NCBI GenBank assembly: GCA_028698335.1
Contig: JAQVDP010000004.1
Location: 186,001 to 250,000, forward strand
Source of the DNA: Nevskiales bacterium
Lineage (GTDB): Bacteria; Pseudomonadota; Gammaproteobacteria; Nevskiales; Nevskiaceae
Reading direction: 5' to 3'
DNA length: 64,000 nt
Below are positions 4,554 through 31,708 of the stretch, piece after piece. Every line of letters starts with the position of its first letter. Position 1 is the first letter of the stretch. The position numbers and the translations under genes are program-made. The notes beneath the pieces are model-generated. The model saw only the letters and a list, made by a program, of their open reading frames with translations, ran no database searches and had not been told where the DNA came from.

Positions 4554-6284
4554 CTACGCCGGCTCCAGGTGGATCACGCGCAGATTCAGGGCCTCGAGCC
4601 CGCGATACCGGTTCACGGTCGGGACGTAAGCCACCCGCACCTGCCCACCGGCACACAGCGACTGCGCGCCGTCGAAGTGAATGGCCTCGACCACGGCGCC
4701 GTCATCCGCCGTCGCCAGGCGATACCGCACATGACGACCGTCGCTGCCGACCGGACGCGCATCGATGACGCTGAAGTCGTTGTCGAACGCAGGCTCGGGG
4801 CAGCCCTGCCCCCAGGGGCCGGCACGCTCCAGCGTCAGCGCGGTGTCGAGCGTCAGTTCCTCCGCCGCCAGTGGACCATCGGTTTCGATGACGCGCTGCA
4901 GCTGATCGGGCTCGACCACCGACGCGCATGCAGCGTCGAAGGCGCGTTCGAACGCCGCCAGATCGGCTTCGGCCAGCGACAGACCGGCGGCCATCGCATG
5001 TCCGCCGAATCGCAGGATCAGACCAGGCTGGCGGGCGTCGACCGCGGCCAGAACGTCACGCAGGTGGACGCCGGGGATCGAACGTCCGGAGCCCTTGAGC
5101 TCGCCGGCGGCCTGCGCCCTGGCGAACGCGACCACCGGGCGATGCCGCGCCTCCTTCAGGCGCGAAGCGACCAGACCGACGACACCTTCGTGCCAGTCCG
5201 GATGGAACACCGTCAGCCCGACGCCGGCGGCCCCGACCAGTTCCAGCGCGTCGAAATGCATCTGTTCCTGGATTTCGCGGCGGTCCCGGTTGAAGCGCTC
5301 CAGAGACTGCGCACGCGGTTCGGCGGCAGCCGCCGAATCCGCCAGCAGACATTCGATGCCGACGCGCATATCGTCGAGCCGCCCGGCGGCGTTGAGGCGC
5401 GGACCGATCCCGAAGCCGATATCCGCAGCGGTCAGGTGCGCCGGAAGGCGCCCGGCCGCGCGCAGCAGCGCCATGACCCCGGGGCGGGTTCGCCCCGCCC
5501 GGATGCGGCGCAGTCCCTGTTCGACCAGAATCCGGTTGTTGTGGTCCAGCCGGACCACATCCGCCACCGTCCCGATCGCCACCAGGTCCAGCAGCTCCGC
5601 CAGGTTGGGACCGTTGCCACCGCCGAAAGCGCCCTCGTCACGCAACCGGGCGCGCAGCGCCAGCAACACGTAGAACATGACGCCGACGCCGGCCAGATGC
5701 TTCGATGCGAATGCACAGCCCGGCTGGTTCGGATTGACGATGGCGTCGGCGGGAACCGCCGCGGCACCCGGCAGGTGATGATCGGTGACGATGACGCTGA
5801 CGCCGGCACGGCGCGCGCGCTCGACCCCGGCGTGGCTGCTGATCCCGTTGTCGACGGTCACCAGCACCTGCGCACCGAGCGCGATGGCCTCGTCCGCCAG
5901 CGCAGGAGACAGGCCGTATCCCATGCGGAACCGGTCCGGGACGACATACTGCACGTCCGCTGCGCCGAGCGCGCGCAGGCCCAGCACGGCGACGCTCGTC
6001 GCCGTCGCGCCATCGGCATCGTAGTCACCCGCGATGACGATGCGCTCGCGGTCGCGGATCGCCTGCGCCAGACGCGCGGCGGCGGCGTCGATTCCGAGCA
6101 GACCGCCCGGCGCCAGCAGCTGGGAGAGTTCGAGCCCAAGGTCGCCCTGACCGAAGCCCCGGGCCGCGTAGACCCGCCGCAAAACCGGATGCAGCTGCTC
6201 CGGCAAGCGCTCCGGCTGTCCCGGAGGACGGCGTCGAAGCTCTGGGGATTCCGGACTCACGGGACCGACCGGCGCCGCCGTCAC
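4554..6284 (-). CDS. recJ: Single-stranded-DNA-specific exonuclease RecJ
   Basis: Processive 5'-3' exonuclease on single-stranded DNA, used in RecF-pathway recombination, mismatch repair and base excision repair. The 576-aa length matches E. coli RecJ (577). The DHH phosphoesterase core shows AGDYDADG near the N-terminus and the signature VTDHH, followed by a DHHA1 region with GGHAMAAG and a C-terminal OB-like part. The start is a GTG at 6284, 19 bp after the thrC stop, so it is probably cotranscribed with hom-thrC. In E. coli recJ lies near prfB and lysS. I cannot see a separate promoter or terminator. Confidence 0.95.
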   Translation of the reverse strand: MTAAPVGPVSPESPELRRRPPGQPERLPEQLHPVLRRVYAARGFGQGDLGLELSQLLAPGGLLGIDAAAARLAQAIRDRERIVIAGDYDADGATATSVAVLGLRALGAADVQYVVPDRFRMGYGLSPALADEAIALGAQVLVTVDNGISSHAGVERARRAGVSVIVTDHHLPGAAAVPADAIVNPNQPGCAFASKHLAGVGVMFYVLLALRARLRDEGAFGGGNGPNLAELLDLVAIGTVADVVRLDHNNRILVEQGLRRIRAGRTRPGVMALLRAAGRLPAHLTAADIGFGIGPRLNAAGRLDDMRVGIECLLADSAAAAEPRAQSLERFNRDRREIQEQMHFDALELVGAAGVGLTVFHPDWHEGVVGLVASRLKEARHRPVVAFARAQAAGELKGSGRSIPGVHLRDVLAAVDARQPGLILRFGGHAMAAGLSLAEADLAAFERAFDAACASVVEPDQLQRVIETDGPLAAEELTLDTALTLERAGPWGQGCPEPAFDNDFSVIDARPVGSDGRHVRYRLATADDGAVVEAIHFDGAQSLCAGGQVRVAYVPTVNRYRGLEALNLRVIHLEPA

Positions 6285-13553: not shown

Positions 13554-14198
13554 TCAGGGCATCGCGCCTGCATCGCAGGCGGGTGTTTCCCCGGTAAGCT
13601 CCAGCGCCAGCTGGTCGAGCAGCTGGTAGAAACGCTGGGTTCCGATCAGGCGCGCCGTCTGCAGCCCCCCCTGCAGCGCCGCCGCCAGTTCGATCGCCTT
13701 GTCGCTCGGCTGCCCCTGGAAGCGCAGTACCCCTTCCCGCCGACCCGTCTCCAGGGTGTCGCTGAGCCACTGATGGATGTCGCGCATCAGCAGGCGCACT
13801 TCATGGCGCATCGGCTCTGGCAGCGTTTCGAACTCCGCCGCCAGCGCGCCGCCGGGACAGAGCCGGCATGCCTCCCCCTGCAGGTAGCGACCGTAGGTCT
13901 CGAAATACGCGCGCAGCGTCTGCCAGGACGACCAGCCCGACGGCAGATCCGCCACCCAGGCGTGGAATCCGCCGCGATAGCGCTGCACCAATGCCACGCC
14001 GAGGTCGTCCTTGCTCGGGAAGTGATAATGGATCGCGGCGTTGCGAATGCCCAGCTGCACGGCGATGTGCTGATACGCGAAGCCCCCGAAGCCACGCCGC
14101 AACATCAACTCCTCGGCGCAGTTCAGAATCGCTTCACGGGTATCCCGCCGGCTCCGCGGCGCGGCTCGTGAGGCATCGGGGGGCATATGCTCCAACAT
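13554..14198 (-). CDS. TetR/AcrR family transcriptional regulator
   Basis: Regulator of 214 aa (210 if the ATG at 14186 is used). The N-terminal HTH runs over about residues 18-65: REAILNCAEELMLRRG, the turn-helix stretch YQHIAVQLGIRNAAIHYHF, then PSKDDL. The C-terminal ligand domain contains CRLCPGGALAAEFETLP, a Cys-rich pattern found in a large TetR subgroup. No obvious target gene is adjacent: its neighbours are smrA (convergent) and the end of the TonB operon, from which a strong terminator separates it. A short inverted repeat just upstream could be an autoregulatory operator. Ligand and regulon unknown. Confidence 0.85.
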   Translation of the reverse strand: MLEHMPPDASRAAPRSRRDTREAILNCAEELMLRRGFGGFAYQHIAVQLGIRNAAIHYHFPSKDDLGVALVQRYRGGFHAWVADLPSGWSSWQTLRAYFETYGRYLQGEACRLCPGGALAAEFETLPEPMRHEVRLLMRDIHQWLSDTLETGRREGVLRFQGQPSDKAIELAAALQGGLQTARLIGTQRFYQLLDQLALELTGETPACDAGAMP

Positions 14199-14201
14199 GG
14201 A

Positions 14202-14219
14202 CTGAGTCTATTCCCTCAG
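14202..14219. promoter_or_regulatory. Inverted repeat upstream of tetR (possible operator)
   Basis: CTGAG-N8-CTCAG lies 4 bp upstream of the tetR start, in the position of a leader or core promoter. TetR regulators often bind palindromes of this kind to repress themselves. The half-sites are only 5 bp, so this could be chance. Confidence 0.3.
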
Positions 14220-14238
14220 CCACGCACCGACAATGTGC

Positions 14239-14273
14239 AAAAAACAGCATGAGGCGCCGAAGCGCCTCATGCT
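14239..14273 (-). terminator. Intrinsic terminator of the TonB energising operon
   Basis: A perfect 12-bp stem (AGCATGAGGCGC at 14246-14257 with its complement at 14262-14273) around a CGAA/TTCG tetraloop. Read on the minus strand it is followed by a run of six T. It lies 85 bp after the stop of the TPR gene and before tetR, so it ends the DUF3450-to-TPR operon. Confidence 0.9.
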
Positions 14274-14357
14274 TTCGTTCCGCGAGCCGGCGCGTCCGGC
14301 CGCGACCGCTGACGCCCGATACCGCCGGTCGACCTGCCCCGCTCTGGTGCAGGCAGG

Positions 14358-15671
14358 TCAGGACGAAGACGCGACGCGGCGCCCTGCGCTGGCGGCCTCG
14401 CGAATCTCACGCAAGGCATCGCGGCGTTCCTGCTCCTTCTGCAGATACGCCAGCCACTGCTGCGCGACCTGGCGCGAGCCTTCGTACTTGGCGGCCTGAC
14501 CGAATGCGGTGCGGGCATCGCCGAAACGCTCGAGTTCGTAGAGCGCGAGCCCCTTGATCACATACACCTGGTCCTGGTCGGCGGCCCCGCCCTTGCCCAG
14601 CGCGCGGTCGGCTGCCGCAACCGCATCCGAATAGCGGCCTTCCTCATAGAGCATCTGCGCCAGCCGCAGCGTCAGCTGTGCGTCGCCACCGGCCTTGGAC
14701 GCCGCCTGCAACGCCTCGATCGCCTGGTCATAGTCCTTCGCCAGCACCCAGGCGTCGGCGAGCTGACGCAGGCTGCGCAGATTGCGTTCGACCACGTTCT
14801 TGTCCATTCCTTCCTGCAGAATCTGGGCGGCGCGGAACGGCACGTCGGCGGCCATCAGCAACTGCGACAGCGCCAGATAGTCCGACTCGGCCGAGAACAG
14901 GCCCAGATCGTGCGCCGCCATCATCGCCGCAAGCTGCTTGCTCTGGCGATCGGTCTCGCCATAGGCCGCCGCAAGCTGGATCCAGTACTCGCGCTTGGAA
15001 TAGTTCTGGCACAAGGTCTTGAGGACGTCGGCCATCTTCTTGTAGTCGTTCTGCGAGTAATAGATCGAGCGCAGCAGCAGCAGCGCATTCTCCTTCGGCA
15101 CCTGCCCCTTGGCACGGGCATCGGCGACCGCCTTCTCGATCGGCCGCAGCGCACGCGTGTAATCCTCGAGCTGGTAGTAGGCCGAGCCCAGGAGCAGATA
15201 GGCATCGGTGGTCGGCTCGTCGGCGATCTTGAACCAGTCCTCGAGCGTGCCAACGGCGGCCTTCCACTGCGAAGTGCTCATGTACATCTGCGCCAGTGCG
15301 TAGAGCGTGTGCTGACGCAGCGACGCCGGGATGGCCGACTGGGCCAGCACCTGCTGGTATGCCTTGATGGCACCCTTCTCGTCGCCTTTCTCGTAGGCGA
15401 TGTACGCGGTGAGGTTCCACGCCATCGCCTTCTCGTAGGCATTGCTCGAACGTCCGTCACGCAGATCGGACAGACGCTCCAGCGCCTCGTCCATACGCTC
15501 GGCATCCATCAGCTCGCGCGCCTTGGACAGCTGCTTGTAGGCGCGCTCGCGCATCGCCGGGACCCGTTCGGTCCGGACGTTCGGTTCCGAGCGGGTATCG
15601 TCCTCGGCCACAGCCACCATGGGCAGCGACAACATCATGCCGATCAGGCTGGAAACCATCAGCTTGCGCAT
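14358..15671 (-). CDS. Periplasmic TPR protein of the TonB2-type system
   Basis: Secreted protein of 437 aa. A signal peptide (MRKLMVSSLIGMMLSLPMVAVA) is followed by helical tetratricopeptide-like repeats over most of the length, with recurring patterns such as AYLLLGSAYYQLEDYTRAL, LRLAQMLYEEGRYSDAV and GLALYELERFGDARTAF. It ends in a basic, Glu-rich tail. The ATG at 15671 has a GGAG ribosome site at good spacing; a GTG at 15686 is less likely. TPR proteins are the usual last gene of operons with TtpC, ExbB2, ExbD2 and TonB2 in Vibrio and Shewanella, where they probably assist assembly of the energising complex in the periplasm. Last gene of the operon, followed by a terminator. Confidence 0.85.
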   Translation of the reverse strand: MRKLMVSSLIGMMLSLPMVAVAEDDTRSEPNVRTERVPAMRERAYKQLSKARELMDAERMDEALERLSDLRDGRSSNAYEKAMAWNLTAYIAYEKGDEKGAIKAYQQVLAQSAIPASLRQHTLYALAQMYMSTSQWKAAVGTLEDWFKIADEPTTDAYLLLGSAYYQLEDYTRALRPIEKAVADARAKGQVPKENALLLLRSIYYSQNDYKKMADVLKTLCQNYSKREYWIQLAAAYGETDRQSKQLAAMMAAHDLGLFSAESDYLALSQLLMAADVPFRAAQILQEGMDKNVVERNLRSLRQLADAWVLAKDYDQAIEALQAASKAGGDAQLTLRLAQMLYEEGRYSDAVAAADRALGKGGAADQDQVYVIKGLALYELERFGDARTAFGQAAKYEGSRQVAQQWLAYLQKEQERRDALREIREAASAGRRVASSS

Positions 15672-15690
15672 CGTCGAACTCCGCACGTCC

Positions 15691-16308
15691 TCAGTCCTTG
15701 GCCAACTGGAAGCGAATCAGGTTCTGCACGCCCTGCACTTCCACCGGTTTTCCGTTGATCACCCGCGGCTTGTAGCGGAACTTCTCCGCAGCGGCGACCG
15801 CAGCCCGATCGAAGATGTTCTCCGGGTCCGCATCGACGACGCTGACGTCCTTGACCGCGCCGCTGGCGGTGACGGTGAACTCGACCAGCACCCATCCCTC
15901 GATGCGCCGCTGCAATGCCCGCTGCGGATAGACCGGCTGCACCTTGACGATCGGCAGGTACTCGCCGTCGCTGCCGCCGCCATCGAGACCGACATCGACA
16001 TTGATGTCGACATCGGCACTGACCGCGCCGATCGACATCGACTGATCGACCTTCGCGGTCGACTGCTGCATCTGCGGCTTGGGCGTCTCCGGCGGCTTCT
16101 CCGGCTTGGGCGGACGCTCGGGCTTGCGCTCCTTCTTGGCGATCTGCTCTTCCTGCTTGACGCGGACGAAGTCGACGACACGACCGGTCGGCTCGTCGGT
16201 CAGGGCGCTGCGGCCGGTGCTGATCAGCAGATGCATCACGAAGAACGCGGCAAACGTGATCAGTGCCGCCAGCGGCACCGCGACCGGAATGCGGGCAGCG
16301 GGGACCAT
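15691..16308 (-). CDS. tonB: TonB family protein (TonB2 type)
   Basis: Energy transducer of 205 aa that couples the inner-membrane proton motive force to TonB-dependent receptors. One N-terminal TM anchor (about 8-30) is followed by a short Lys/Pro-rich spacer (about 57-80, repeated KPE/PPK) and a C-terminal TonB domain with YPQRALQRRIEGWVLVEFTV and RFQLAKD at the end. The short spacer is typical of TonB2 rather than E. coli TonB. Its start overlaps the exbD stop by one base (TGATG). It presumably serves the receptor at 22.5-25.5 kb. Confidence 0.93.
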   Translation of the reverse strand: MVPAARIPVAVPLAALITFAAFFVMHLLISTGRSALTDEPTGRVVDFVRVKQEEQIAKKERKPERPPKPEKPPETPKPQMQQSTAKVDQSMSIGAVSADVDINVDVGLDGGGSDGEYLPIVKVQPVYPQRALQRRIEGWVLVEFTVTASGAVKDVSVVDADPENIFDRAAVAAAEKFRYKPRVINGKPVEVQGVQNLIRFQLAKD

Positions 16309-16715
16309 CAGGGCTCCTGCGCGGCAATCGAGACGTTGTAGACCCCCGCCTGGCGCGATGCGTCCATCACCGCCACGAGCTTCTTGACGTTGGCATCCTG
16401 GTCGGCCTGGATCACGACGGACCCCTGCGGATTCTCCGCATGCAGGCGCTCGATGTTGGCGCGCACCTGATCGACCTCGATCCGGCGACGATTGATCCAG
16501 ATCTCGCCGTTGGCATCGATCGCGATCAGGATGTTGGCGCGGTCCTGCTTGGTCGCGGTCTGCGCGTCCGGACGGTTGACCTCGATGCCGGACTCCTTCA
16601 CGAACGAAGCCGTCACGATGAAGAAGATCAACATGATGAACACGACATCGAGCATCGGTGTCATGTCGATGGCTGAATCCTCGGATTCATCCATGTTCGG
16701 GAAAATCTGTCGCAT
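16308..16715 (-). CDS. exbD: Biopolymer transport protein ExbD
   Basis: ExbD/TolR family protein of 135 aa. It has a single TM helix near the N-terminus (MTPMLDVVFIMLIFFIVTASF) containing the conserved proton-carrying Asp in LDVV, then a periplasmic domain. It forms the inner-membrane motor with ExbB and powers TonB. Located 10 bp after exbB and overlapping tonB, consistent with one coupled operon. Confidence 0.95.
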   Translation of the reverse strand: MRQIFPNMDESEDSAIDMTPMLDVVFIMLIFFIVTASFVKESGIEVNRPDAQTATKQDRANILIAIDANGEIWINRRRIEVDQVRANIERLHAENPQGSVVIQADQDANVKKLVAVMDASRQAGVYNVSIAAQEP

Positions 16716-16725
16716 CTTGCGAACC

Positions 16726-17253
16726 TCAGTGATCGAACGTCAGCGACTCGGACAGCTTCTCGGTGCGAGCCTTGGTCTGACGGTCGAGAATCGTGATGAA
16801 GAACACGCCGGTCAGCGCGCCGACCATGCCTGCCATCGTCGGGATGGTCGCCTTCGAAATGCCGGAGGCCATGTTGCGCGCGCTACCGGTGCCGACCAGC
16901 GACATCACGTCGAAGACCTCCATCATGCCGGTGACCGTTCCGAGTAGCCCGCACAGCGGACTGATCGCCACGAGCGCCTTGATCAGATCGAGATGATTGG
17001 TCAGCAGCATCCGTGCCTCGGCCACCATGCCGCTGCGGATCTCGTGCGCCTCCCAGCTGCGCCGTTCCGGCCGCCCTTCCCAGCGCGCCACGACGCGCTG
17101 GGCCAGGGTCGGAAAGCCGTACCGCAGAAACAGGAAACGCTCGAGAATCAGCGTCCACATGACGAAGATGACCGCCATGATCACGAGCAGGACATCACCG
17201 CCCCGCTCGAGCAGCTGATAGACCGACTCGTAGGCGTCAAGCAGCTGGTACAT
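16726..17253 (-). CDS. exbB: ExbB-type proton channel subunit (short, ExbB2-like)
   Basis: MotA/TolQ/ExbB family protein of 175 aa with three TM segments. The conserved core is SPLCGLLGTVTGMMEVFDVMSLVGTG, then KATIPTMAGMVGALTGVFFITIL. The ATG at 17253 has a GAAGGCGG ribosome site and overlaps the end of the previous gene by 17 bp; the resulting length matches Vibrio ExbB2. An upstream in-frame ATG at 17274 would only add a few residues. It works with ExbD and TonB in this operon. Confidence 0.92.
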   Translation of the reverse strand: MYQLLDAYESVYQLLERGGDVLLVIMAVIFVMWTLILERFLFLRYGFPTLAQRVVARWEGRPERRSWEAHEIRSGMVAEARMLLTNHLDLIKALVAISPLCGLLGTVTGMMEVFDVMSLVGTGSARNMASGISKATIPTMAGMVGALTGVFFITILDRQTKARTEKLSESLTFDH

Positions 17254-18616
17254 GGCCGCCTTCGCGTTCGGCATGCTCGGCCATGATGCCGGTGGCGCGT
17301 TCCTGGATGATCGCACCCAGGCGCTTCGCACGGCCGGACACCACCGTATGCAACAGTACCGTCGGTACCGCGACGCACAGACCCAGCACCGTCGTCACCA
17401 GCGCCTGCGAAATGCCACCGGCCATCAGCTTCGGATCGCCGGTGCCGAACAGCGTGATCGCCTGGAAGGTATTGATCATGCCGGTCACCGTTCCAAGCAG
17501 GCCCAGCAACGGCGCAACCACCGAGATGATCTTGAGCAGCGGCAGGAAGCGCTGGATCCGCGGCACCTCCTGCTGCATCGACTCGGCCAGGCGCAGTTCC
17601 AAAGTCTCGGTGTCGGTCTTCTGCCACTTGCGATAGGTCGCCATGACCCGACCCAGCGGATTGTCATCGCGCGGTTCGGGCTGGTTCATCTGCTGGTGCA
17701 CCTTGCCGCTGATCAGGCCCAGCGAGACCAGACGCTCGATCGCCATCAGCAGCGCGACGATGCCCAGCGCGATGATGATGTAGCCGACGATGCCGCCCTG
17801 GCGGATACGCTCGGACAGACTCGGCGACTGGATCAGCAGCCCGAGAATCGAACCCCGTGAAGGATCCATCCACAGATCCTGGACCTGCCCGGGCGCCGCG
17901 GCCGCGAACTCGCGCGCCGACGAGGTGTACCGCCCGGCGGGCTGGCGCGTCAGCGCCTTGAGCTGCGCGGTCTCGGGTTCGTAGACGATGTAGCCGTTAT
18001 CCCCGACCACGTTGAAGGCGCCGACCCGGACCACCTCCTGCTGCTGGACTTCGCCATCCGGCTGGACGACGTCGGCCGGGTAGCGCGCCACCTTGCCGGC
18101 GGCGGTCATCTCACGCTGCATCTCGAACCACAGGCGCTCGATCTCCTCGATCTTGGGCAGCTTGGTGCTGGCGCCCGCCTTCTCGATCAGCGCGGTCAGG
18201 AATTCGTCGCGACCGGGATACTGCGAACTGAGAACCGAGCCCGCGACCTGTCCCTTGAAGTCTCCGGCGGTCTGCTGCAGCACACCGAACAGTTCCTTGA
18301 GCGATCCCAAACGCTCGTTGAGTCGCGACTGCGCGTCGGCCAGCTCGGCCTCGTTGGCCTGATACTGCTGTTCGCGGGTCGCGCTCTGCTGCTCGAGCCC
18401 GGCAAGGTCCGCCTCGCGCTGCTTGAGGATCTCACCCTGCTTCTCGCGTTCCTTGATGAACGCCTGCAGGCGCTGCTGCTGCTGGGCCGCGTCGCGGGCA
18501 ATGCCCTTCTCGACCAGCTTCAGCAGGTCGTCGACGGACTGGCTGGCCGGAGCGTTCTGCGCCTGCGCCGAGCCCGCACCCGCGAACAACAATCCGATGA
18601 TGAGCCACTTCTTCAT
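17237..18616 (-). CDS. TtpC-like long MotA/TolQ/ExbB protein
   Basis: Protein of 459 aa. A signal peptide (MKKWLIIGLLFAGAGSAQAQ) is followed by a Gln/Glu-rich coiled coil (about 30-130), a periplasmic domain, a TM helix near 275-300 (GYIIIALGIVALLMAIERLV), and a C-terminal ExbB core with PLLGLLGTVTGMINTFQAITLFGTG. This is the architecture of TtpC, the extra component that Vibrio TonB2 systems need in addition to ExbB2 and ExbD2. The ATG overlaps the DUF3450 stop (ATGA). The large periplasmic part probably contacts the DUF3450 and TPR proteins or the receptor. Confidence 0.9.
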   Translation of the reverse strand: MKKWLIIGLLFAGAGSAQAQNAPASQSVDDLLKLVEKGIARDAAQQQQRLQAFIKEREKQGEILKQREADLAGLEQQSATREQQYQANEAELADAQSRLNERLGSLKELFGVLQQTAGDFKGQVAGSVLSSQYPGRDEFLTALIEKAGASTKLPKIEEIERLWFEMQREMTAAGKVARYPADVVQPDGEVQQQEVVRVGAFNVVGDNGYIVYEPETAQLKALTRQPAGRYTSSAREFAAAAPGQVQDLWMDPSRGSILGLLIQSPSLSERIRQGGIVGYIIIALGIVALLMAIERLVSLGLISGKVHQQMNQPEPRDDNPLGRVMATYRKWQKTDTETLELRLAESMQQEVPRIQRFLPLLKIISVVAPLLGLLGTVTGMINTFQAITLFGTGDPKLMAGGISQALVTTVLGLCVAVPTVLLHTVVSGRAKRLGAIIQERATGIMAEHAEREGGHVPAA

Positions 18617-19392
18617 TGCGCCGCCTCCGCGGTCTCGATCGGCAAGCGGATCAGATCAGGCGCGGTCTGCGCCCGGGCGATCCGGATTCCCTGTTGAATC
18701 TGTCCCGAGTAGCTCGCCGGCAGCGTCTCCCAGCGGCCGTTGTCGGCATCCCAGCGACCGTACTGGCGGCCATCCAGGGTCTGGTAGAACAGGCCGAGGC
18801 GACCGATGCGGAGATAGTCGACCTCGCGCGCGCCGCCGTCCTGCTCCAGCGAGCCGCGATAGGCCTCGATGGTGTTGCCGTATTCGATCTCGGTCTCGTA
18901 GGCCGCCATCACGTTGCGGAACTTCTCGGCCACCGTCACGTCGGCGCTGCCCATCAGGCCCTTGAGCTTCTCGACACGCGCCGTGCGCTCTTCGGTCAGA
19001 AACGGCAGGTCCAGCGCAACGAACTGCTCCAGGGAGTCGATCATGCGCAGCATCAGCGGCACGATCTGCCGCTCGATGATGGTGACCTCGTCGATCGACT
19101 GGTGAATCGAGTCGAGCTCGGTGGTCTGATCCTTGATCTGGAGGTTCAGCTGTTCCAGGTAGGCCTGCAGACCATCGATCTGCTTTTCCACCGCCTTGTA
19201 CTGATCGATGCGCTTGCGCGTATCGTCATGAACGGCATCGACCTTGTCCTGGGCGCGCGCGCCCTGCGAGACGCGGCTGTCTTCACGACTGAGCGCCTGG
19301 CCGACATCCTTCTGCGCCGGCGCCGCAGCGCTGTACAACGCGACGGCGGCTGCGATCACGCAAGCCACCCGTCGCTTCGTTACTCTGTGCAT
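18613..19392 (-). CDS. DUF3450 periplasmic coiled-coil protein
   Basis: Secreted protein of 259 aa. An N-terminal signal peptide (cleavage near SAAAPAQ) is followed by a long predicted coiled coil (about 45-110, rich in Gln, Asp and Glu) and a C-terminal domain with RIGRLGLFYQTLDG and WETLPASYSGQIQQGIRIARAQTAPDL, characteristic of DUF3450. Genes of this family regularly precede ttpC in TonB2-type operons; the role is unknown but probably structural. First gene of the six-gene operon. A ribosome site AAAGG lies about 9 bp before the ATG. The mapped Pho-like promoter implies a leader of roughly 170 bp. Confidence 0.88.
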   Translation of the reverse strand: MHRVTKRRVACVIAAAVALYSAAAPAQKDVGQALSREDSRVSQGARAQDKVDAVHDDTRKRIDQYKAVEKQIDGLQAYLEQLNLQIKDQTTELDSIHQSIDEVTIIERQIVPLMLRMIDSLEQFVALDLPFLTEERTARVEKLKGLMGSADVTVAEKFRNVMAAYETEIEYGNTIEAYRGSLEQDGGAREVDYLRIGRLGLFYQTLDGRQYGRWDADNGRWETLPASYSGQIQQGIRIARAQTAPDLIRLPIETAEAAQ

Positions 19393-19569
19393 GGACCAAA
19401 CCTTTGATCAAGTTGGATAGGCTCAAGCCCGGGCGCGCCTCGACTGTGATGAATCGCCCCGGGTGTCAGTGCAGCGCCGTCCACAGCCCTCTCGAACGCC
19501 GCAACGCGAGCACACCCGTATTCCGTTGACGGGAATCGAGCCTGCCCGACACCACTGAAACTGCGCGCG

Positions 19570-19614
19570 AGGCTACCGGCGCCAGATGACAGAACGGTGA
19601 CGAATTGATGAATG
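19570..19614 (-). promoter_or_regulatory. Pho-box-like promoter of the DUF3450-ttpC-exbBD-tonB operon
   Basis: Read on the minus strand, three 7-bp repeats are spaced by 4 bp: CATTCAT (19608-19614), TCGTCAC (19597-19603) and CTGTCAT (19586-19592). The last is a perfect PhoB half-site. Exactly 10 bp downstream lies TAGCCT (19570-19575), which can serve as a -10 element. The 10-bp gap equals that of the E. coli pstS promoter. No good -35 is present, as expected for PhoB-activated promoters. Confidence 0.75.
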
Positions 19615-19637
19615 TCCGCGAACACCGGCGGCTCACC

Positions 19638-19667
19638 AAAAAAAACGGCGACCCGAAGGTCGCCGTT
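19638..19667 (-). terminator. Intrinsic terminator after the lipoprotein gene
   Basis: A 10-bp perfect stem (AACGGCGACC at 19644-19653 with its complement at 19658-19667) around a 4-base loop, followed on the minus strand by eight T. It lies 27 bp after the lipoprotein stop codon. It separates this gene from the energising operon, which has its own promoter. Confidence 0.93.
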
Positions 19668-19693
19668 CGATACATGAGAACCTCAGGGGTCCA

Positions 19694-22420
<2,727 letters not shown>

Positions 22421-22456
22421 CGCTGATTCCATCGTTCAGGTTTGAAGGGTCCGCGT

Positions 22457-22490
22457 ATTTCGCGACATGAAAATGACAGTAGTGAGACAG
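22457..22490 (-). promoter_or_regulatory. Pho-box-like promoter of the lipoprotein gene
   Basis: On the minus strand CTGTCTC (22484-22490), four bases, then a perfect CTGTCAT (22473-22479) make a Pho box with the standard 11-bp periodicity. Ten bases further on, CGAAAT (22457-22462) is a weak -10 candidate. Transcription from there would give a leader of about 30 bases before the ATG at 22420. Confidence 0.7.
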
Positions 22491-22544
22491 TCCCGAGTCG
22501 GAGACAGCGCCGGTTCCGGCACGCTCTCCGCCCGTTCTTCGGAG

Positions 22545-25544
22545 TTAGAAATCCATCGAATAGCCGAGCGAGAACTCGATACCCTTGCGATAGCTTTCGA
22601 TCACCCGACCGCCCTGGGTGTATTCGGTCTTCGCATCGAGCAGGTTCTTCGCCTTGAACTTGACCTTGCCCGAATCGCCGACTTGCTTTTCGTAGTTGAT
22701 GTTCACCAACAGCCGGCCCGCTTCCATGATGCTGGGCTGGTTGCGCGTGACGACGTCGATGCGATCGTCGAAGTAATTCAGCAACAGCGTCGCCTTCTGA
22801 CCGGATGTGTAGTGGTCGTAGTTCAGCTGCAGATTCGCGAGGAACGGGGACTGCCCCTGCAGATCGCGCTTCGGGTCGATCTCGAGACGCTGCCCGACGT
22901 CGTCGAGCGTGATCTCGGAGGAGATCAGCGCGACGTTACCGCTCAGCGACAGGCCATGATCCAGTCCGTCGAACAGGGTCTTGCTGGCATCGAGCTCGAT
23001 GCCCGAGACCTTGGCCGCCTCGTTGTTGCGGAAGGTCAGTGCACTGGTTGCCGAGCCCGAGCCGTCCGCGACGGAACGCTCCATCGGGTCGGAGATGTCC
23101 TTGTAGAACAGCGCCAGTGACGCGCTGTCCTTGTCGCCGAAGTAGTACTCGGCGCGGAAGTCGAAGTTGTCGATGGTCGACGCGACACAGGTCGGGCATC
23201 CGATGTACTCGCGACCGTTCTCGTCGTAGAAGCGGGACGGCGCGAGTTCGGTGATGTTCGGGCGCGAAACCGTCGCACTGTAGCCCCCGCGGAACTGCCA
23301 GTCGTCACCAAGGCGATAGATCACGGCGACTGCCGGCAACACCTCGTTCGACTCCTGCGACACCGGGCTGTTCGGGGCGTTCGGGAAGTCGAGGTCGAGC
23401 GAGAAATCGTCCTTGCGGACGCCGGCGACGACCGTCAGCGCTTCGCCAAAGGACGTCTCGCTGTTGACGTAGGCTGCGGTGGAAGTCTGCTCGGCGGTAT
23501 ACGAGTCGGTCGAAGCCGACCGCGCGTTGAGACGGAATGCGTCGTTCTCGAAGTTCTCGCGTGTCAGCAGCGACTCGAGATCCTGGTTCAGGTCGATCGG
23601 ATTGGAACCCTGGCGCACACCGAGCCGGACCAGTTCGACATCACGATCGCGGGTATTGGCCAGCACGCCGAACTTGAAGTTGGTGTCGATCGAGTCGCTG
23701 AACGTGATCGGCAGCGAATAGTCCAGACCGAAGTCGAGCCCGTCCTCGGTCAGGTCCGCATAGCTGCGCTCGACCGTTGAGATCGCAAGGCTGTCACCCA
23801 GATAGAGATAGCTGCGACGGTCCGGCGAATAACGGCTGGTCTGTGAGACGCCAGCGCGCCACTCGAGCTTGTGGTCGTTGAACAGGAATACCGAGCCCTC
23901 GAACTGCTGCGCGAGGAACTGTCGCTCGACCCACTCCAGCGTCACCTCGGTGAAGTTGTTGCCTTCGTTCTTGTCGAAGCCCGACTCGACCGAGGTACGG
24001 TCCTCGGAGTCACGCAGGATGATGGTCTTGCCGCTGACGCTCCAGCCGGCGTTGGCCTCATAGCCGGCGTACAGATAGGCGTTGACCGCGGTGCTGACCA
24101 CATCCCAGCTGTAGTCGGACGCGCGATCGAGGTCGTCGATGCTCGCATCCTGGCGCGACGAAGTCTTCTGGTCGTACGACACCGAGCCATAGAGGCCCAG
24201 TGCGCCGCTGTCGAGTTCGAACGGACGGCCCAGCGTGTAGGAGAGACCGAAGTTCGGATTCGCCGTGGTGGTCTTCGGGTTGTAGATGTTCGGCAGCATC
24301 GCCGCGAGCGCGGCCGCCTGCTGCTGGGTCACGCAGTCCTGTTGGCCCTCGATCTGACAGATGCTGAAACGCCGACCGCCGTTGGTCGCCGCCCGCACCG
24401 CACCCGGAAGTTCGCGCAGGCCGTCGTCGAAGCCGAAGAAGTCGGAATCACTGCCTTCGTAGGTATCGATGGTGTCGCCGGTCACGCCGGTGACGTAGCC
24501 GCCGGTGACCGACAGGCGATTGACCGGCTCCTCCGGCATGCCGCGGGTGGTCATGCGGATGATGCCGCCGGTGGTTTCGCCCGGCAGATCGGCCGAGAAG
24601 TTCTTCTGGATCTCAATTCCACCGAGAATCTCCGACGGAAACAGATCCAGCTGCACATCGCGACGGAACGGATCGGTGCTCGGCATCAGGTTGCCGTTGA
24701 GCGTGGCCGAGATATAGCGGCCGTCGAGTCCGCGCACGACCGCGTAGCGATCTCCGGTCACCGAGATGCCGACGATGCGCTTGAGCGACGCGGCGACATC
24801 GCTGTCGCCGAAACGCAGCAGGTCGTCGAGGCTGATCGCGTCGGTCACCGCGGTCGACATCCGCTCGACCTCTACGGTGGACGTCGCCGGCTTGTACGAC
24901 CCGACGACCAGCACTTCCTCGACCGCACCGGCAACGTCCGGACCGCTGTCGGCCGTCCGCAACGTGATGTTGGCTTCGACGCCGACGTTGGCGACCACGC
25001 GGAAGCCGTCCTGAACGGCCGTCTCGTAGTCCGGGTGCGAAACCTTCAGCGTATAGACGCCGCGCGGAACCTCGAGCTTGAACGCGCCGACGTCGTCGGT
25101 CGTGGTCGACAGGCCAAGCTCGTCGATGCTCACGGTCGCCCCGGCGACCGCGAAGGTTCCGGTGTTGGTCACATAGCCGCTGACCACGCCGGGAGCGCCG
25201 GCCTCGCCTTCGGCGTAGGTCTCGATCGCGATTTCCGGTTCTTCATTGAACGTCGCGAAGGTCACGCTGATGTCGGCGTTCTGGCCTTCAGCGACACTGA
25301 AGCTGTACTCGGCGAGCGTGGCGCCGCGCTTCTGCAGCAGCAACCGGTGGTCGCCCGCACCCAGCTCGTGTACCAGGTTGCCCTGACCGCCTGTCGTTCC
25401 GACATTGCTGCCGTCGAGTTCAACCTCGACGCCCTTGAGCGGATTCGCCCCGAGAAAGGTGTACAGCTGCAACTCTGCGGCCAGTGCATTGTGTGCGGTC
25501 AGCAACATGGCCAGGACGAGGACGAACTTCGACGCGATCTTCAT
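22545..25544 (-). CDS. TonB-dependent receptor with N-terminal carboxypeptidase-regulatory-like domain
   Basis: Outer-membrane receptor of 999 aa. Signal peptide (ends near ALAA, about 23); a first beta-sandwich-like domain (about 24-100, with LKGVEVELDGSNVG, PEGA-like); a second carboxypeptidase-regulatory-like domain (about 118-195, VSGYVTNTGTFAVAGATVSI); a TonB box EEVLVVG (209-215); a plug domain (about 225-345, with VRGLDGRYISATLNG and PGETTGGIIRMTTRG); and a 22-strand-type barrel ending in an aromatic C-terminus (GYSMDF). It probably imports a large or scarce substrate using the TonB encoded downstream. The Pho-like array upstream points to a phosphorus-containing substrate. Accessory N-terminal domains recall SusC-type receptors that work with a surface lipoprotein; the next gene encodes such a lipoprotein, though it is not SusD-like. 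Confidence 0.92.
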   Translation of the reverse strand: MKIASKFVLVLAMLLTAHNALAAELQLYTFLGANPLKGVEVELDGSNVGTTGGQGNLVHELGAGDHRLLLQKRGATLAEYSFSVAEGQNADISVTFATFNEEPEIAIETYAEGEAGAPGVVSGYVTNTGTFAVAGATVSIDELGLSTTTDDVGAFKLEVPRGVYTLKVSHPDYETAVQDGFRVVANVGVEANITLRTADSGPDVAGAVEEVLVVGSYKPATSTVEVERMSTAVTDAISLDDLLRFGDSDVAASLKRIVGISVTGDRYAVVRGLDGRYISATLNGNLMPSTDPFRRDVQLDLFPSEILGGIEIQKNFSADLPGETTGGIIRMTTRGMPEEPVNRLSVTGGYVTGVTGDTIDTYEGSDSDFFGFDDGLRELPGAVRAATNGGRRFSICQIEGQQDCVTQQQAAALAAMLPNIYNPKTTTANPNFGLSYTLGRPFELDSGALGLYGSVSYDQKTSSRQDASIDDLDRASDYSWDVVSTAVNAYLYAGYEANAGWSVSGKTIILRDSEDRTSVESGFDKNEGNNFTEVTLEWVERQFLAQQFEGSVFLFNDHKLEWRAGVSQTSRYSPDRRSYLYLGDSLAISTVERSYADLTEDGLDFGLDYSLPITFSDSIDTNFKFGVLANTRDRDVELVRLGVRQGSNPIDLNQDLESLLTRENFENDAFRLNARSASTDSYTAEQTSTAAYVNSETSFGEALTVVAGVRKDDFSLDLDFPNAPNSPVSQESNEVLPAVAVIYRLGDDWQFRGGYSATVSRPNITELAPSRFYDENGREYIGCPTCVASTIDNFDFRAEYYFGDKDSASLALFYKDISDPMERSVADGSGSATSALTFRNNEAAKVSGIELDASKTLFDGLDHGLSLSGNVALISSEITLDDVGQRLEIDPKRDLQGQSPFLANLQLNYDHYTSGQKATLLLNYFDDRIDVVTRNQPSIMEAGRLLVNINYEKQVGDSGKVKFKAKNLLDAKTEYTQGGRVIESYRKGIEFSLGYSMDF

Positions 25545-25905
25545 TCAGCAAAACCCGATGGATCGCACACGTGGCGCCCGGCGCTACGAGCAAGCGTTGG
25601 CCGCTACGCGTACGGATGTGGACGTGACCGGGGATTGGCGAGTCGGAGGTATGGCGTCTATGACCGTTTGGCGTCACGCCGTGACGGCGTGGCCACCCCT
25701 GACCATAGGGCGCTGTCGATTCCCCCGAAAGACGTCGTCACCCGGACCCGAGTTCAATTCGCGGGCGAGGCTACGCGTCGAGGATGACGGTAATGTGACC
25801 GTTTGATTTGGGAATGATGACAGCCACAACACAGCTGCAATATGTCGCCGCCGCTTCAGGCCGACGTCCGCGACGCCGGCGCGCCACCGCAGCGGGGGCG
25901 ATGGG
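25545..25905. other. Intergenic region between ispF and the TonB-dependent receptor
   Basis: 361 bp without a gene. It carries the Pho-like promoter at 25768-25823 (minus strand) and, downstream of it, a leader of roughly 215 bp before the receptor ATG. An inverted repeat, GGCGTCACGCCGTGACGCC-like (around 25669-25690), lies in the leader. I see no convincing small ORF and no terminator for ispF. Confidence 0.6.
25768..25823 (-). promoter_or_regulatory. Double Pho-box-like promoter of the TonB-dependent receptor
   Basis: On the minus strand four heptamers are spaced every 11 bp: CTGTCAT (25817-25823), CCCAAAT (25806-25812, degenerate), CGGTCAC (25795-25801) and CCGTCAT (25784-25790). Ten bases after the last lies TAGCCT (25768-25773), the same hexamer at the same distance as in the DUF3450 promoter. 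The pattern is that of two head-to-tail PhoB dimer sites. Confidence 0.75.
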
Positions 25906-26418
25906 CTAGCGCCGGAGCAGCAGCACGACGGCGTGCGCCGCGATGCCTTCCTTGCGGCCGACCGCGTCGAGGCGCTCGTGGGTCGTGGCCTTGACGTTGA
26001 CCTGCCCCACGCTCGCGCCAAGATCGCCTGCCAGACAGTCGCGCATCGCCGGGACGAACGCCGCCACCCGCGGCGCCTGCGCGATCAGGGTCAGATCCGC
26101 GTTGCCGAAGCGATACCCCGCATCGCCAACCCTGCCAACGACTTCACGCAGCAGCACACGGCTGTCGACCCCTTGGTAACGCGGATCCGTATCAGGGAAG
26201 AAGTGGCCGATATCCCCCAGCGCCGCCGCGCCGAGCAGGGCATCGCACAGCGCATGAATGAGAACATCGCCGTCGGAGTGCGCGACGATCCGATAGGGGC
26301 ACTCGATATGGACACCGCCGAGGACGACGCCCGCCCCGGCTTCCAGCCGGTGGACGTCATAACCGTGTCCGATCCGGAACGGCGGAATCGACTGCGGGTC
26401 CGGCACGGTGGTGTTCAA
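25906..26418 (-). CDS. ispF: 2-C-methyl-D-erythritol 2,4-cyclodiphosphate synthase
   Basis: MEP-pathway enzyme (up to 170 aa) forming MEcPP for isoprenoid synthesis. Signature stretches are GHGYDVHRLEAG (metal ligands Asp and His), HSDGDVLIHALCDALLGAAALGDIGHFFPDTD, and KATTHERLDAVGRKEGIAAHAV near the end. The start is uncertain: the TTG at 26418 overlaps the ispD stop (TTGA), whereas a GTG at 26406 would give a normal-looking start at VPDPQ. In most gammaproteobacteria truD and surE follow; here the Pho-linked TonB module follows instead. Confidence 0.95.
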   Translation of the reverse strand: MNTTVPDPQSIPPFRIGHGYDVHRLEAGAGVVLGGVHIECPYRIVAHSDGDVLIHALCDALLGAAALGDIGHFFPDTDPRYQGVDSRVLLREVVGRVGDAGYRFGNADLTLIAQAPRVAAFVPAMRDCLAGDLGASVGQVNVKATTHERLDAVGRKEGIAAHAVVLLLRR

Positions 26419-27206
26419 CGTTCTGCCCCCTTGATGCCCGGCCCCGGCGCGGCGGGCGCAACGCGCGGTTGCGCGCCTTCGGCACCGTCGCCGCGCAGCC
26501 AGAACGCGGCAAGCGCCAGATCCTCAGGATAGGTGACTTTGAGATTGGACGCCCGTCCCTCCACCAGCAACGGATGATGGCCGTCCATCTCCATCGCGCT
26601 GGCTTCGTCGGTGACGCGCGGATCGTCCACCCGTCGCCGCAACGCATCCATCAGATCGGCGAGGCCGAACAGCTGCGGCGTCTGTGCGCGCCACAGGCGA
26701 CTCCGATCCTCCGTGCCGATGACCCGCTGCCCGTCGGCGCGCTTGACCGTGTCACTGACCGGGATCGCGAGCAACGCTCCGCTCGAATCCAGCATGCCGT
26801 CGCGCAGGCGTTCGATCTCGTCGAGCGTCACACAGGGCCGGGCCGCGTCATGGACGAGCACCCGCACCGATTCGGCCCCGGCACTGAGCGCCTCGACGCG
26901 TTGCAGGCCCGCCAGCACGGACACGGACCGTTCCCGGCCGCCGACGGCGACATGCAGACGCGGATGACGTGCAATCGGCAAGGTCGCGAAAGCGGCATCG
27001 CGTTCGGCCAGCACCACGACCACACCGTCGATCCACTCTGCCGCCAGCAGAACTCCGAGACTCCATTCCATCACGGCCCGCCCGAGCAGCGGCAGATATT
27101 GCTTGGGTTGCTCGCTGCGCATGCGCGTGCCGCCGCCGGCCGCCGGCAACACCGCCCAGTAGCGCGGTGTGGCGCTGCTCTCAGAGGGTCTGGATTCGGT
27201 GGACAT
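26415..27206 (-). CDS. ispD: 2-C-methyl-D-erythritol 4-phosphate cytidylyltransferase
   Basis: MEP-pathway cytidylyltransferase, 263 aa from the ATG at 27206. The N-terminal nucleotide-binding motif is LPAAGGGTRMRSEQPKQYLPL; LVHDAARPCVT and the SDTVKRADG stretch are also typical. The frame extends to 27260, but those residues are Arg-rich and unlike the family. It overlaps ispF, the two-enzyme pair common in this operon position. Confidence 0.95.
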   Translation of the reverse strand: MSTESRPSESSATPRYWAVLPAAGGGTRMRSEQPKQYLPLLGRAVMEWSLGVLLAAEWIDGVVVVLAERDAAFATLPIARHPRLHVAVGGRERSVSVLAGLQRVEALSAGAESVRVLVHDAARPCVTLDEIERLRDGMLDSSGALLAIPVSDTVKRADGQRVIGTEDRSRLWRAQTPQLFGLADLMDALRRRVDDPRVTDEASAMEMDGHHPLLVEGRASNLKVTYPEDLALAAFWLRGDGAEGAQPRVAPAAPGPGIKGAER

Positions 27207-29107: not shown

Positions 29108-31708
29108 ATGATTGCCTGCACCACCCCGCTGCGCGCCCGCGCGGCATCGCTGGGGCTTATCGCCTCACTCGTCTGCACGTCCGCGTTCGCGATCCCTGAA
29201 CGCAAGGCGGCGGTCGGCGATCTGCTGGCGCGCCTGCAGCAGAACACCGGCGGCGCGTTGGCCGATTCACGCCTTGCCGCCAATCAATACCTGGCGCTGT
29301 CCACGCTCAGCGCGTTGCCGCTGATGGCCGACAACCCGGTCGACACACCGCTGGCGCGCGCGCTCGGCTTCCTGTCGATCTACGGCGAACTGGCCGGCGT
29401 GCGCGACGCCACACGGGAGCTGGTCCAGCAGCGCGTTTCGACCGACAGCGCCGGCGTCACCCACGTCCACCTCGACCAGATGCACCAGGGGCTGCCGGTG
29501 TTCGGCGCCCGCCTGGTCGTGCATATGAACGATTCCGGCATCACCGGTATGAGCGGCGTGTTCGTCGACGGTCTGGAGCAGTTGTCGACGCAGCCCGCCC
29601 TCAGCGTGGCCACCCTGCGGCAGCACGCACTGGCCGCAAGCCGCAAGCATCACCGGCAGGCTGCCCTGCATGTCGAATCGGGTCGCCTCATTGTCTACCG
29701 CACCGGCCTGCTCGAAGGCATCGCCGGCAGCAATCACCTCGCCTACGAGGCGACCGTCGCCGGCGCCGCCGGGCAGGCGGTGCGCGAACGGGTGATCGTT
29801 GACGCCAATACCGGTGCCGTCCTCAACCGGATCGACCAGATCCACCGCGTGCTCAACCGCGAGATCTTCACGCCGACGATGGACGTCCCGCCGGTCCTGA
29901 CCGAGGGTAGCCTGCTGGCACCGGCCGACCCGCCGTTCGCCGGCGACGTCGCCGGCTCCTCACGCACGCTCAACCTACCGACGGACAACCTCTACATCTT
30001 CGCCGGCGGCACCTACGCGCTGTACCAGAACCTGTTCGGCCGCGAAGGCTACGACGACGGCGCGATCCCGCCGGAGGAACAGATCCAGCGCAGCGTCTAC
30101 CTGATCAACGAAAACTGCCCCAATGCCTACTGGGATGGCACCTCGACCAACTACTGCCCGGGCTTCGACGCCGACGACGTGGTCAGTCACGAGTGGAGCC
30201 ACGCGTATACCGAATACACGCACGGCCTGGTGTATCAGTACCAGTCCGGCGCGCTGAACGAGTCGTACTCCGACATCTTCGGCGAGGCCTACGATCTGGT
30301 GAACGGCATCGAAGGCATCCTCGGGGCGACCCTGACCGAAGGCGAGTACTTCGAGAACGGCGGCAGCCGCTGGGTGCTCGGCGAAGACCTCAGTGAAGTT
30401 GCCGCCGGACTGCTGCTGCGCGACATGTGGGACCCGGACAACTTCGGCGTCAATGTGCCATTGGTCGGGCTGCAGATCCTCGGAACCCCCTCTCCGGGCA
30501 GCGTCATCACCTCCGAGAACTACTATTGCGGCACCGGCGACAACGGCGGGGTTCATACCAACTCCGGGGTCCCCAACCATGCGTTCGCGATGCTCGTCGA
30601 CGGCAAGAGCTTCAACGGCGTGGATATTCCCGCGATCGGCATGATCAAGGCGCTGCATATCTACTTCCAGGCCGAGACGCATTACCAGACGCCGACGACC
30701 AACTTCGCGCAGCACGCCGATGCACTCGAACAGTCGTGCCGGGACCTGATCGGCCGGCCGCTGAACGATGTCTTCGGGGAGGTTTCCGGCGAGGTCATCA
30801 CCAGCGCGGACTGCGCCGCGGTGCATGCGGCGATGGTCGCCGTCGAGATGCGCGAAGATCCGACCGAGAAATGCGACTACCAACCGGTACTGAAGCCCGA
30901 AGCCGAGACGCCGGCGCTGTGCGCCGACGGCGAGGATCCCGAGGCGTATTTCTCCGAAACCTGGGAAGGCGGCGCAATTCCCGCTGGCTGGACCCTCGGC
31001 AAGAATCTCACCGGCGACTCCGAACCGGAGGTGTTCGCATTTGCCGTCAGCGATGAACTGCCGGAGCCGCACAGCGGGCACGCCGCGTTCGCGCTCGACA
31101 ACACCGGCGGCACCTGTGCCGCGGGCGGCGACATTTCCGGATCGTTCTGGATGGATTCACCGGCCATCACGGTCGACGCAGCCGGCAGCTTCCTGACCTT
31201 CACCCACTTCATGCAGTCCGAACAGGGTTACGACGGCGGCAACCTGAAGTTCAGCCTCAACGGCGGCGACTTCGCGATCGTGCCGGCGGAGGCCTTCACC
31301 CACAACGGTCATAGCGGTCAGTTCGAGTCCTCGAGCACCAACACCAACCCGATGGCCGATGCCGAAGCCTGGACCGGCTCCGACCAGGGCCAGGCCACGG
31401 GCAGCTGGGGGCGGACCGTGGTCGATCTCAGCGCACTGGGCGCGGCGGTCGGCGACAGCCTGCAGTTCCGCTGGGAATTCGGAAACGACGGCTGTGCCGG
31501 CAACCTCGGCTGGTACGTCGACGACACCGCCGTCTACAGCTGCAAGGTCGGCGGCAGCGGCCTGCCGGTCAGCGGCGACGACCCGGTCCCCGACGACGGC
31601 GGCAACGGTGGCGGCGGCACCGGCGGCTCGTCCGGCGGCGGCGCCCTGGGCTGGCTGCTGCTGGGACCGATGCTGGGCCTCGCGCTCGCACGCCGGCGCC
31701 GGCACTGA
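29108..31708 (+). CDS. Secreted M4 (thermolysin-family) metalloprotease with GlyGly-CTERM tail
   Basis: Protein of 866 aa. A signal peptide (about 1-28) is followed by an FTP/PepSY-type propeptide (to about 250) and an M4 catalytic domain with HEWSH (361-365) and the third zinc ligand in NESYSD (E385), exactly 20 residues after H365 as in thermolysin. GGVHTNSGVPNHAF follows. The histidine that thermolysin carries in THYG appears as Phe (SFNG). A Gly/Asp-rich beta-sandwich (MAM or choice-of-anchor type, about 615-810) comes next. The tail is Gly-rich, then a hydrophobic helix GWLLLGPMLGLALA, then RRRR, the GlyGly-CTERM signal processed by rhombosortase in type II secretion species. A GGGGAAA ribosome site precedes the ATG. 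It sits on the opposite strand inside the otherwise conserved eno-kdsA block. Confidence 0.92.
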   Translation: MIACTTPLRARAASLGLIASLVCTSAFAIPERKAAVGDLLARLQQNTGGALADSRLAANQYLALSTLSALPLMADNPVDTPLARALGFLSIYGELAGVRDATRELVQQRVSTDSAGVTHVHLDQMHQGLPVFGARLVVHMNDSGITGMSGVFVDGLEQLSTQPALSVATLRQHALAASRKHHRQAALHVESGRLIVYRTGLLEGIAGSNHLAYEATVAGAAGQAVRERVIVDANTGAVLNRIDQIHRVLNREIFTPTMDVPPVLTEGSLLAPADPPFAGDVAGSSRTLNLPTDNLYIFAGGTYALYQNLFGREGYDDGAIPPEEQIQRSVYLINENCPNAYWDGTSTNYCPGFDADDVVSHEWSHAYTEYTHGLVYQYQSGALNESYSDIFGEAYDLVNGIEGILGATLTEGEYFENGGSRWVLGEDLSEVAAGLLLRDMWDPDNFGVNVPLVGLQILGTPSPGSVITSENYYCGTGDNGGVHTNSGVPNHAFAMLVDGKSFNGVDIPAIGMIKALHIYFQAETHYQTPTTNFAQHADALEQSCRDLIGRPLNDVFGEVSGEVITSADCAAVHAAMVAVEMREDPTEKCDYQPVLKPEAETPALCADGEDPEAYFSETWEGGAIPAGWTLGKNLTGDSEPEVFAFAVSDELPEPHSGHAAFALDNTGGTCAAGGDISGSFWMDSPAITVDAAGSFLTFTHFMQSEQGYDGGNLKFSLNGGDFAIVPAEAFTHNGHSGQFESSSTNTNPMADAEAWTGSDQGQATGSWGRTVVDLSALGAAVGDSLQFRWEFGNDGCAGNLGWYVDDTAVYSCKVGGSGLPVSGDDPVPDDGGNGGGGTGGSSGGGALGWLLLGPMLGLALARRRRH

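Follow-up and report, generated by a model that had tools for sequence, protein, structure and literature searches.

The 64,000-nt stretch analysed here (the window) comes from a Nevskiales bacterium (GenBank assembly GCA_028698335.1, contig JAQVDP010000004.1, positions 186,001 to 250,000) and carries a TonB-dependent uptake module on its minus strand. The module consists of a receptor gene (22545-25544), a lipoprotein gene (19694-22432) and a six-gene operon headed by a DUF3450 gene, which encodes a TonB2-type energiser. As a first-pass annotation had described, 7-bp repeats on an 11-bp grid can be read on the minus strand before each of the three. The receptor array has four units (25784-25823; CTGTCAT N4 CCCAAAT N4 CGGTCAC N4 CCGTCAT), the second of which is a poor match, and is followed after 10 bp by TAGCCT (25768-25773), a putative -10 hexamer. 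The array before the DUF3450 operon has three units (19586-19614; CATTCAT N4 TCGTCAC N4 CTGTCAT) and is followed, again after 10 bp, by the same putative hexamer (19570-19575). Three units also precede the lipoprotein gene (22462-22490; CTGTCTC N4 CTGTCAT N4 ATGTCGC), with GACCCT (22446-22451) as a weak putative -10 hexamer at the same gap. The annotation had claimed at least one perfect or near-perfect CTGTCAT per array, and TAGCCT exactly 10 bp past the receptor and DUF3450 arrays; a perfect copy occurs in all three arrays and both hexamers are in place, while GACCCT lay outside the range it had covered. The true start of the lipoprotein, judged from its lipobox and leader, is probably 22420. 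The predicted starts leave leaders of ∼170-220 nt before the receptor (25545-25767) and DUF3450 (19393-19569) genes, and no match to an Rfam family was found in either.

Both strands of the window were scored with a seven-position PhoB matrix built from Escherichia coli weights. The top six two-repeat scores and the top eight three-repeat scores all fell at the three arrays. When two repeats, a 10-bp gap and TANNNT were scored together, the DUF3450 (24.98), receptor (21.66) and lipoprotein (15.77) sites were the best three of the window. We weighed the explanation that a short motif had recurred by chance against 150 third-order Markov windows. By this two-repeat measure a score of 25.0 was reached in none of them, 21.6 in three and 15.7 in 24; by the three-repeat measure (DUF3450 25.89, lipoprotein 18.95, best receptor triple 15.88) a score of 25.9 was again reached in none, 19.0 in three and 15.9 in 22. 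Receptor-grade single sites and lipoprotein-grade full sites are therefore within the reach of random sequence, but no random window held two sites scoring 15.7 or more. Taken singly, the lipoprotein or receptor site could by some measures be due to chance; the three linked sites are not. Chance is also opposed by the conservation of position and geometry in orthologues and by the co-occurrence of the motif with known Pho genes, both described below, and we regard it as extremely improbable. The annotation's argument that three linked recurrences are unlikely to be accidental thus held.

The genome, which is 4.3 Mb in size, encodes a PhoB whose DNA-recognition helix can be aligned without any change with the E. 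coli PhoB helix in PDB 1gxp. A gene run phoB-phoR-pstS-porin-pstC-pstA-pstB-phoU is present, in which phoR, pstC, pstA and pstB were named from order and sequence without a family search. At the phoB promoter the sequence is CTGTCAC N4 TCGTCAT, 10 bp, TATCCT, and at the pstS promoter it is TTGTCAT N4 CTGCAAC, 10 bp, TAATCT. A whole-genome scan for CTGTCAY N4 CTGTCAY N10 TANNNT with up to three mismatches gave 18 places, compared with five for the reversed pattern used as control. Overlap of two of these at the lipoprotein leaves 17 distinct places, three of which are the window sites. Seven others lie at phosphate genes: phoB, pstS, a PhoD phosphatase, two PF04185 phosphoesterases, polyphosphate kinase and a PlcP-like metallophosphoesterase. 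Six of these seven are 22-65 bp before the called start; the PlcP-like gene needs a later start, because its site falls within the longest frame, at its 5′ end. TAGCCT recurs at one of the PF04185 phosphoesterase promoters. For the remaining seven places, either no gene was recognised or the gene has no evident connection with phosphate. By mismatch number, two window sites equal the phoB promoter (two mismatches) and the third equals pstS (three), so that they rank with these promoters in the kind of genome scan that the annotation had suggested.

OmpR-type regulators also bind tandem repeats, and the module might be controlled by another member of this family with a similar habit rather than by PhoB. 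The genome offers several OmpR/PhoB-type regulators (43 search-level matches, eight of which, PhoB included, cover nearly the whole model), but PhoB is the only one above the curated cut-off. The half-site is moreover of the PhoB type, and phoB, pstS and other phosphate genes are preceded by sites of the same geometry. Another regulator is thus quite unlikely. The sequence evidence indicates with high probability that the three window sites are PhoB-type promoters, and we consider it very likely that the three transcription units of this one outer-membrane module are members of the Pho regulon.

Conservation was examined upstream of receptor orthologues. The search covered 58 genomes of the family and 369 drawn from the class, the window being counted in each, and found orthologues in 22 and 26 genomes, respectively. 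The distribution is patchy, with two of ten other congeners passing the threshold; one genome, G380, holds two receptor copies of equal score at distant places (L185 and L199). At least 80 named receptor loci were compared, 76 of which had testable upstream DNA, and each upstream region was scored against 100 of its own first-order shuffles. The receptor regions beat 95 of the 100 shuffles in 55 of 76 cases and 99 in 47, compared with five and three of 78 for the regions before the neighbouring lipoprotein. At 60% identity the receptor loci form 35 groups, 23 of which contained at least one positive. Geometry was measured in 85 regions, namely the 76 and nine from the window, G039, G001, G002, phoB and pstS. 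Repeat pairs scoring 14 or more occurred at 11-bp spacing in 29 of the 85 regions, versus at most two at spacings of 7-10 and 12-15 bp. TANNNT began at offset 10 in 24 of the 47 regions with a good pair, and in no more than four at each of the other offsets covered (0 to 26). The conserved values are an 11-bp grid and a 10-bp gap, which agrees with the annotation's proposal of the PhoB mode, in which the box takes the place of the -35 element ∼10 bp before the -10.

The energiser operon comprises, all on the minus strand, the DUF3450 protein (TtpB-type; 18613-19392; PF11932, 283 bits), a large ExbB/MotA-type protein (TtpC-type by position; 17237-18616; PF01618), ExbB (16726-17331; PF01618), ExbD (16308-16715; PF02472), TonB (15691-16308; PF03544) and a tetratricopeptide repeat (TPR) protein (TtpD-type by position; 14358-15686; PF13432). 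The large ExbB-type protein has a weakly DUF3450-like N-terminal part, which scored 23.4 of the 32.6 bits of the Pfam cut-off, hinting that TtpB and TtpC may share an ancestor. Terminator-like hairpins, identified by consensus match only, lie on the minus strand in the gap between the lipoprotein and the operon (19643-19668; 11-bp stem, T tract) and after the TPR gene (14246-14273; 12-bp stem, T tract); G039 has one, by the same kind of match, at the place corresponding to the former. The gene order DUF3450, TtpC-like, ExbB, ExbD, TonB, TPR is found in the window and also in G039, G001, G033 and L158. DUF3450 proteins are common in the family (52 of 58 genomes), and copies unlinked to the receptor could therefore serve as a control. 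A box beating all 200 shuffles precedes five of eight receptor-linked DUF3450 genes (window, G039, G001, L114 and G002). The lowest of these positives scored 16.1, and none of 29 unlinked copies reached 16. A ninth linked case, outside this count, is L158, from a Lysobacterales metagenome-assembled genome, in which DUF3450, two ExbB-type genes, ExbD, TonB, TPR, receptor and lipoprotein follow one another in one direction. The strongest site of that locus (score 21.5) lies just before the likely DUF3450 start and reads GCGTCAA N4 CTGTCAT, 10 bp, TAGACT. Hydrocarboniphaga effusa (L111), a cultured relative, has both receptor and lipoprotein, but the flanking DNA available for it gave no match to the energiser.

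The 999-aa receptor has a CarboxypepD_reg-like N-terminal domain, a plug and a barrel; at a Pfam threshold of 0.001 only CarboxypepD_reg, PEGA, plug and barrel models matched, and no STN signalling domain was found. The lipoprotein is a tandem duplication of a beta-helix domain, its halves being 77% identical, and relatives have one or two copies of the domain. The structure predicted for one domain (mean predicted local distance difference test score 80.6, predicted template modelling score 0.88) can be aligned with proteins of the parallel beta-helix type, for example NosD, AlgE4 and polygalacturonases. Pfam gave no match to the lipoprotein at 0.001, including none to the SusD-type families PF07980 and PF14322. 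A SusCD/PusCD pair was consequently rejected, the lipoprotein model being a beta-helix. Among 398 genomes sampled from the phylum, 51 have relatives of the lipoprotein.

The pair appears to resemble a kind already seen responding to phosphate starvation. In Caulobacter crescentus, according to the available text of PMC2996285, the phosphate-starvation lipoprotein ElpS (CC0170) has its gene next to those for the receptor Cc0171 and a type II secretion system (T2SS). The window likewise pairs a TonB-dependent receptor with an adjoining lipobox lipoprotein, and its lipoprotein has a PhoB-type array where the Caulobacter one is described as being under phosphate-starvation control. The link to CC0170/CC0171 is indirect and runs through L172, a Brevundimonas locus with relatives of both proteins in the order lipoprotein, receptor, gspC, D, E, F, which is the order that the same text gives for Caulobacter. 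Neither the array test nor the whole-locus scan found an array upstream in L172. The window differs in the receptor's own array, the tandem duplication of the lipoprotein and the linked TonB energiser, and neither the window, among the neighbouring proteins scanned, nor most relatives have the T2SS neighbourhood of the Caulobacter pair. In Flavobacterium johnsoniae, Fjoh_3856/3857 (PUSIII), an FI lipoprotein and a TonB-dependent transporter, were strongly induced at low phosphate in the portion of PMC8115612 available. The lipoprotein is described there as weakly resembling pectate lyases and polygalacturonases, enzymes like those to which the beta-helix model in the window is similar; PUSIII belongs to another phylum and is likened to the window pair by description.

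For the energiser, the accessible part of PMC6957404 gives the order of the Vibrio TonB2 and TonB3 operons as ttpB-ttpC-exbB-exbD-tonB-ttpD, with a receptor gene at the start of TonB3. The window operon has the same six-gene order, DUF3450 first and TPR last, but a PhoB-type array stands where the iron-responsive TonB2 operon has a putative Fur box. A precedent for ExbB, ExbD and TonB genes under PhoB is PUMA3 of Pseudomonas aeruginosa (exbB2D2-tonB4), which, as far as PMC4971064 was available, also needs the extracytoplasmic function sigma factor VreI and has its pho box upstream of the -35. Cell-surface signalling of the PUMA3 type was rejected for the window receptor, as no STN domain was seen in Pfam at 0.001. 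Several TonB-dependent receptors are placed in the PhoB regulon of Caulobacter by the text available of PMC11208175. The type of receptor-lipoprotein pair is thus already known; the novelty lies in the TonB2-type energiser that is linked to it and has a PhoB-type box of its own, together with the promoter geometry over many Gammaproteobacteria.

A number of observations weigh against Pho control of the module. The lipoprotein hexamer GACCCT is poorer than TAGCCT. The absence of a -35/-10 consensus match from 13900-26500 agrees with promoters that have no -35 hexamer but is weak evidence, since 1.4 were expected. Terminator-like hairpins were not clearly more frequent than in shuffles (window 11 versus 7.1, sd 2.7; G039 5 versus 6.6). 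Among receptor orthologues, 21 of 76 were not positive. For four of these a whole-locus scan found a strong site elsewhere: past the extrapolated start but ahead of the first aligned residue in L144, L152 and L164, and at the operon head in L158. For the other 17 it found no site in a consistent place. The site of the same-genus congener G040/L130 (L130: Solimonas marina) is weak (5.0). Most relatives do not keep the separate lipoprotein array beside the receptor: of 78 lipoprotein upstream regions, only five exceeded 95 of 100 shuffles and three exceeded 99. No box precedes three of the eight linked DUF3450 genes, namely those of L112 and G033, which closely follow the lipoprotein, and that of L166, which lies some hundreds of bases past it. 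Six of the 29 unlinked DUF3450 regions pass the 5% shuffle level, with scores up to 13.4. Finally, Cc0171 was reported in the available text of PMC2996285 to be constitutive and not phosphate-dependent, unlike ElpS. The comparison of upstream regions that the first-pass annotation had suggested therefore bore out the receptor array and did not extend to the lipoprotein array in most relatives. We regard its observation as confirmed and its Pho reading as supported.

From the sequence we infer PhoB binding, induction and termination at the module as follows. When phosphate is scarce, phosphorylated PhoB would bind the tandem 7-bp repeats, which would replace the -35 element, and recruit RNA polymerase to the TANNNT -10 hexamer 10 bp downstream of them. 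The output would be the TonB-dependent receptor, its partner, the ElpS-like beta-helix lipoprotein, and a dedicated TonB2-type energiser. We propose that the energiser has its own promoter because the terminator past the lipoprotein would isolate it from that gene. The lipoprotein may help to capture or process a phosphorus-bearing substrate at the surface.

A Pho switch on three neighbouring units, kept in many relatives, suggests that the machine scavenges a phosphorus-containing nutrient, and by analogy the module probably imports a phosphorus-bearing molecule. The boxes could be real and the module could nevertheless, in phosphate stress, serve another nutrient or iron, such as that released from phosphate minerals; Pho control would then not entail phosphorus import. 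TonB2-type energisers are indeed known from iron uptake under Fur in the part of PMC6957404 available, but Caulobacter ElpS responded to phosphate and not to iron (available text of PMC2996285), and the genes flanking the receptor in relatives concern phosphate or phosphorus-free lipids. At 81 loci of other genomes, the receptor flanks contain an OlsF cluster in 24, directly upstream and divergent in 18, a cluster of PlcP-like metallophosphoesterases in 11 and a cluster of PHO4 transporters in eight. One member of each cluster was identified; the OlsF representative (L120, 7689-9428) is an ornithine lipid synthase (728 bits, cut-off 620). The OlsF neighbour may link the receptor to the making of phosphorus-free lipids. 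We therefore consider a role in the uptake of iron or another nutrient to be rather unlikely, and import of a phosphorus-bearing molecule remains the preferred reading. On balance we also favour the view that a complete TonB2-type energiser has come under Pho control and now serves a single receptor-lipoprotein pair. The outcome would be a self-contained TonB machine that takes up a phosphorus-bearing substrate, with one PhoB-type site ahead of all eight genes in one relative and, in the window, three separate PhoB-type promoters that would tune the parts.

TonB receptors of unclear purpose are many, and a phosphate switch on receptor, lipoprotein and energiser indicates which nutrient to test. 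The module would offer a clear example of regulation assigning a TonB complex to one task. It would also mean that what was seen for ElpS/Cc0171 in Caulobacter extends to many Gammaproteobacteria, and would make the puzzle of ElpS, a phosphate-starvation lipoprotein whose job is unclear, testable through the receptor.

Upstream of the module the window encodes IspF, IspD and enolase. A scan of 15 proteins in the interval 12.1-32.6 kb found no T2SS family. A thermolysin-type (M4) metallopeptidase is encoded at 29108-31708; it has a glycine-rich, hydrophobic, arginine-rich tail, which we take to resemble the GlyGly-CTERM type. Elsewhere, L037 has two PhoB-type sites 3.3 kb apart, at 2838-2855 and 6119-6147; one of them precedes a PF04185 phosphoesterase, and the other is at a CBS-domain histidine kinase.

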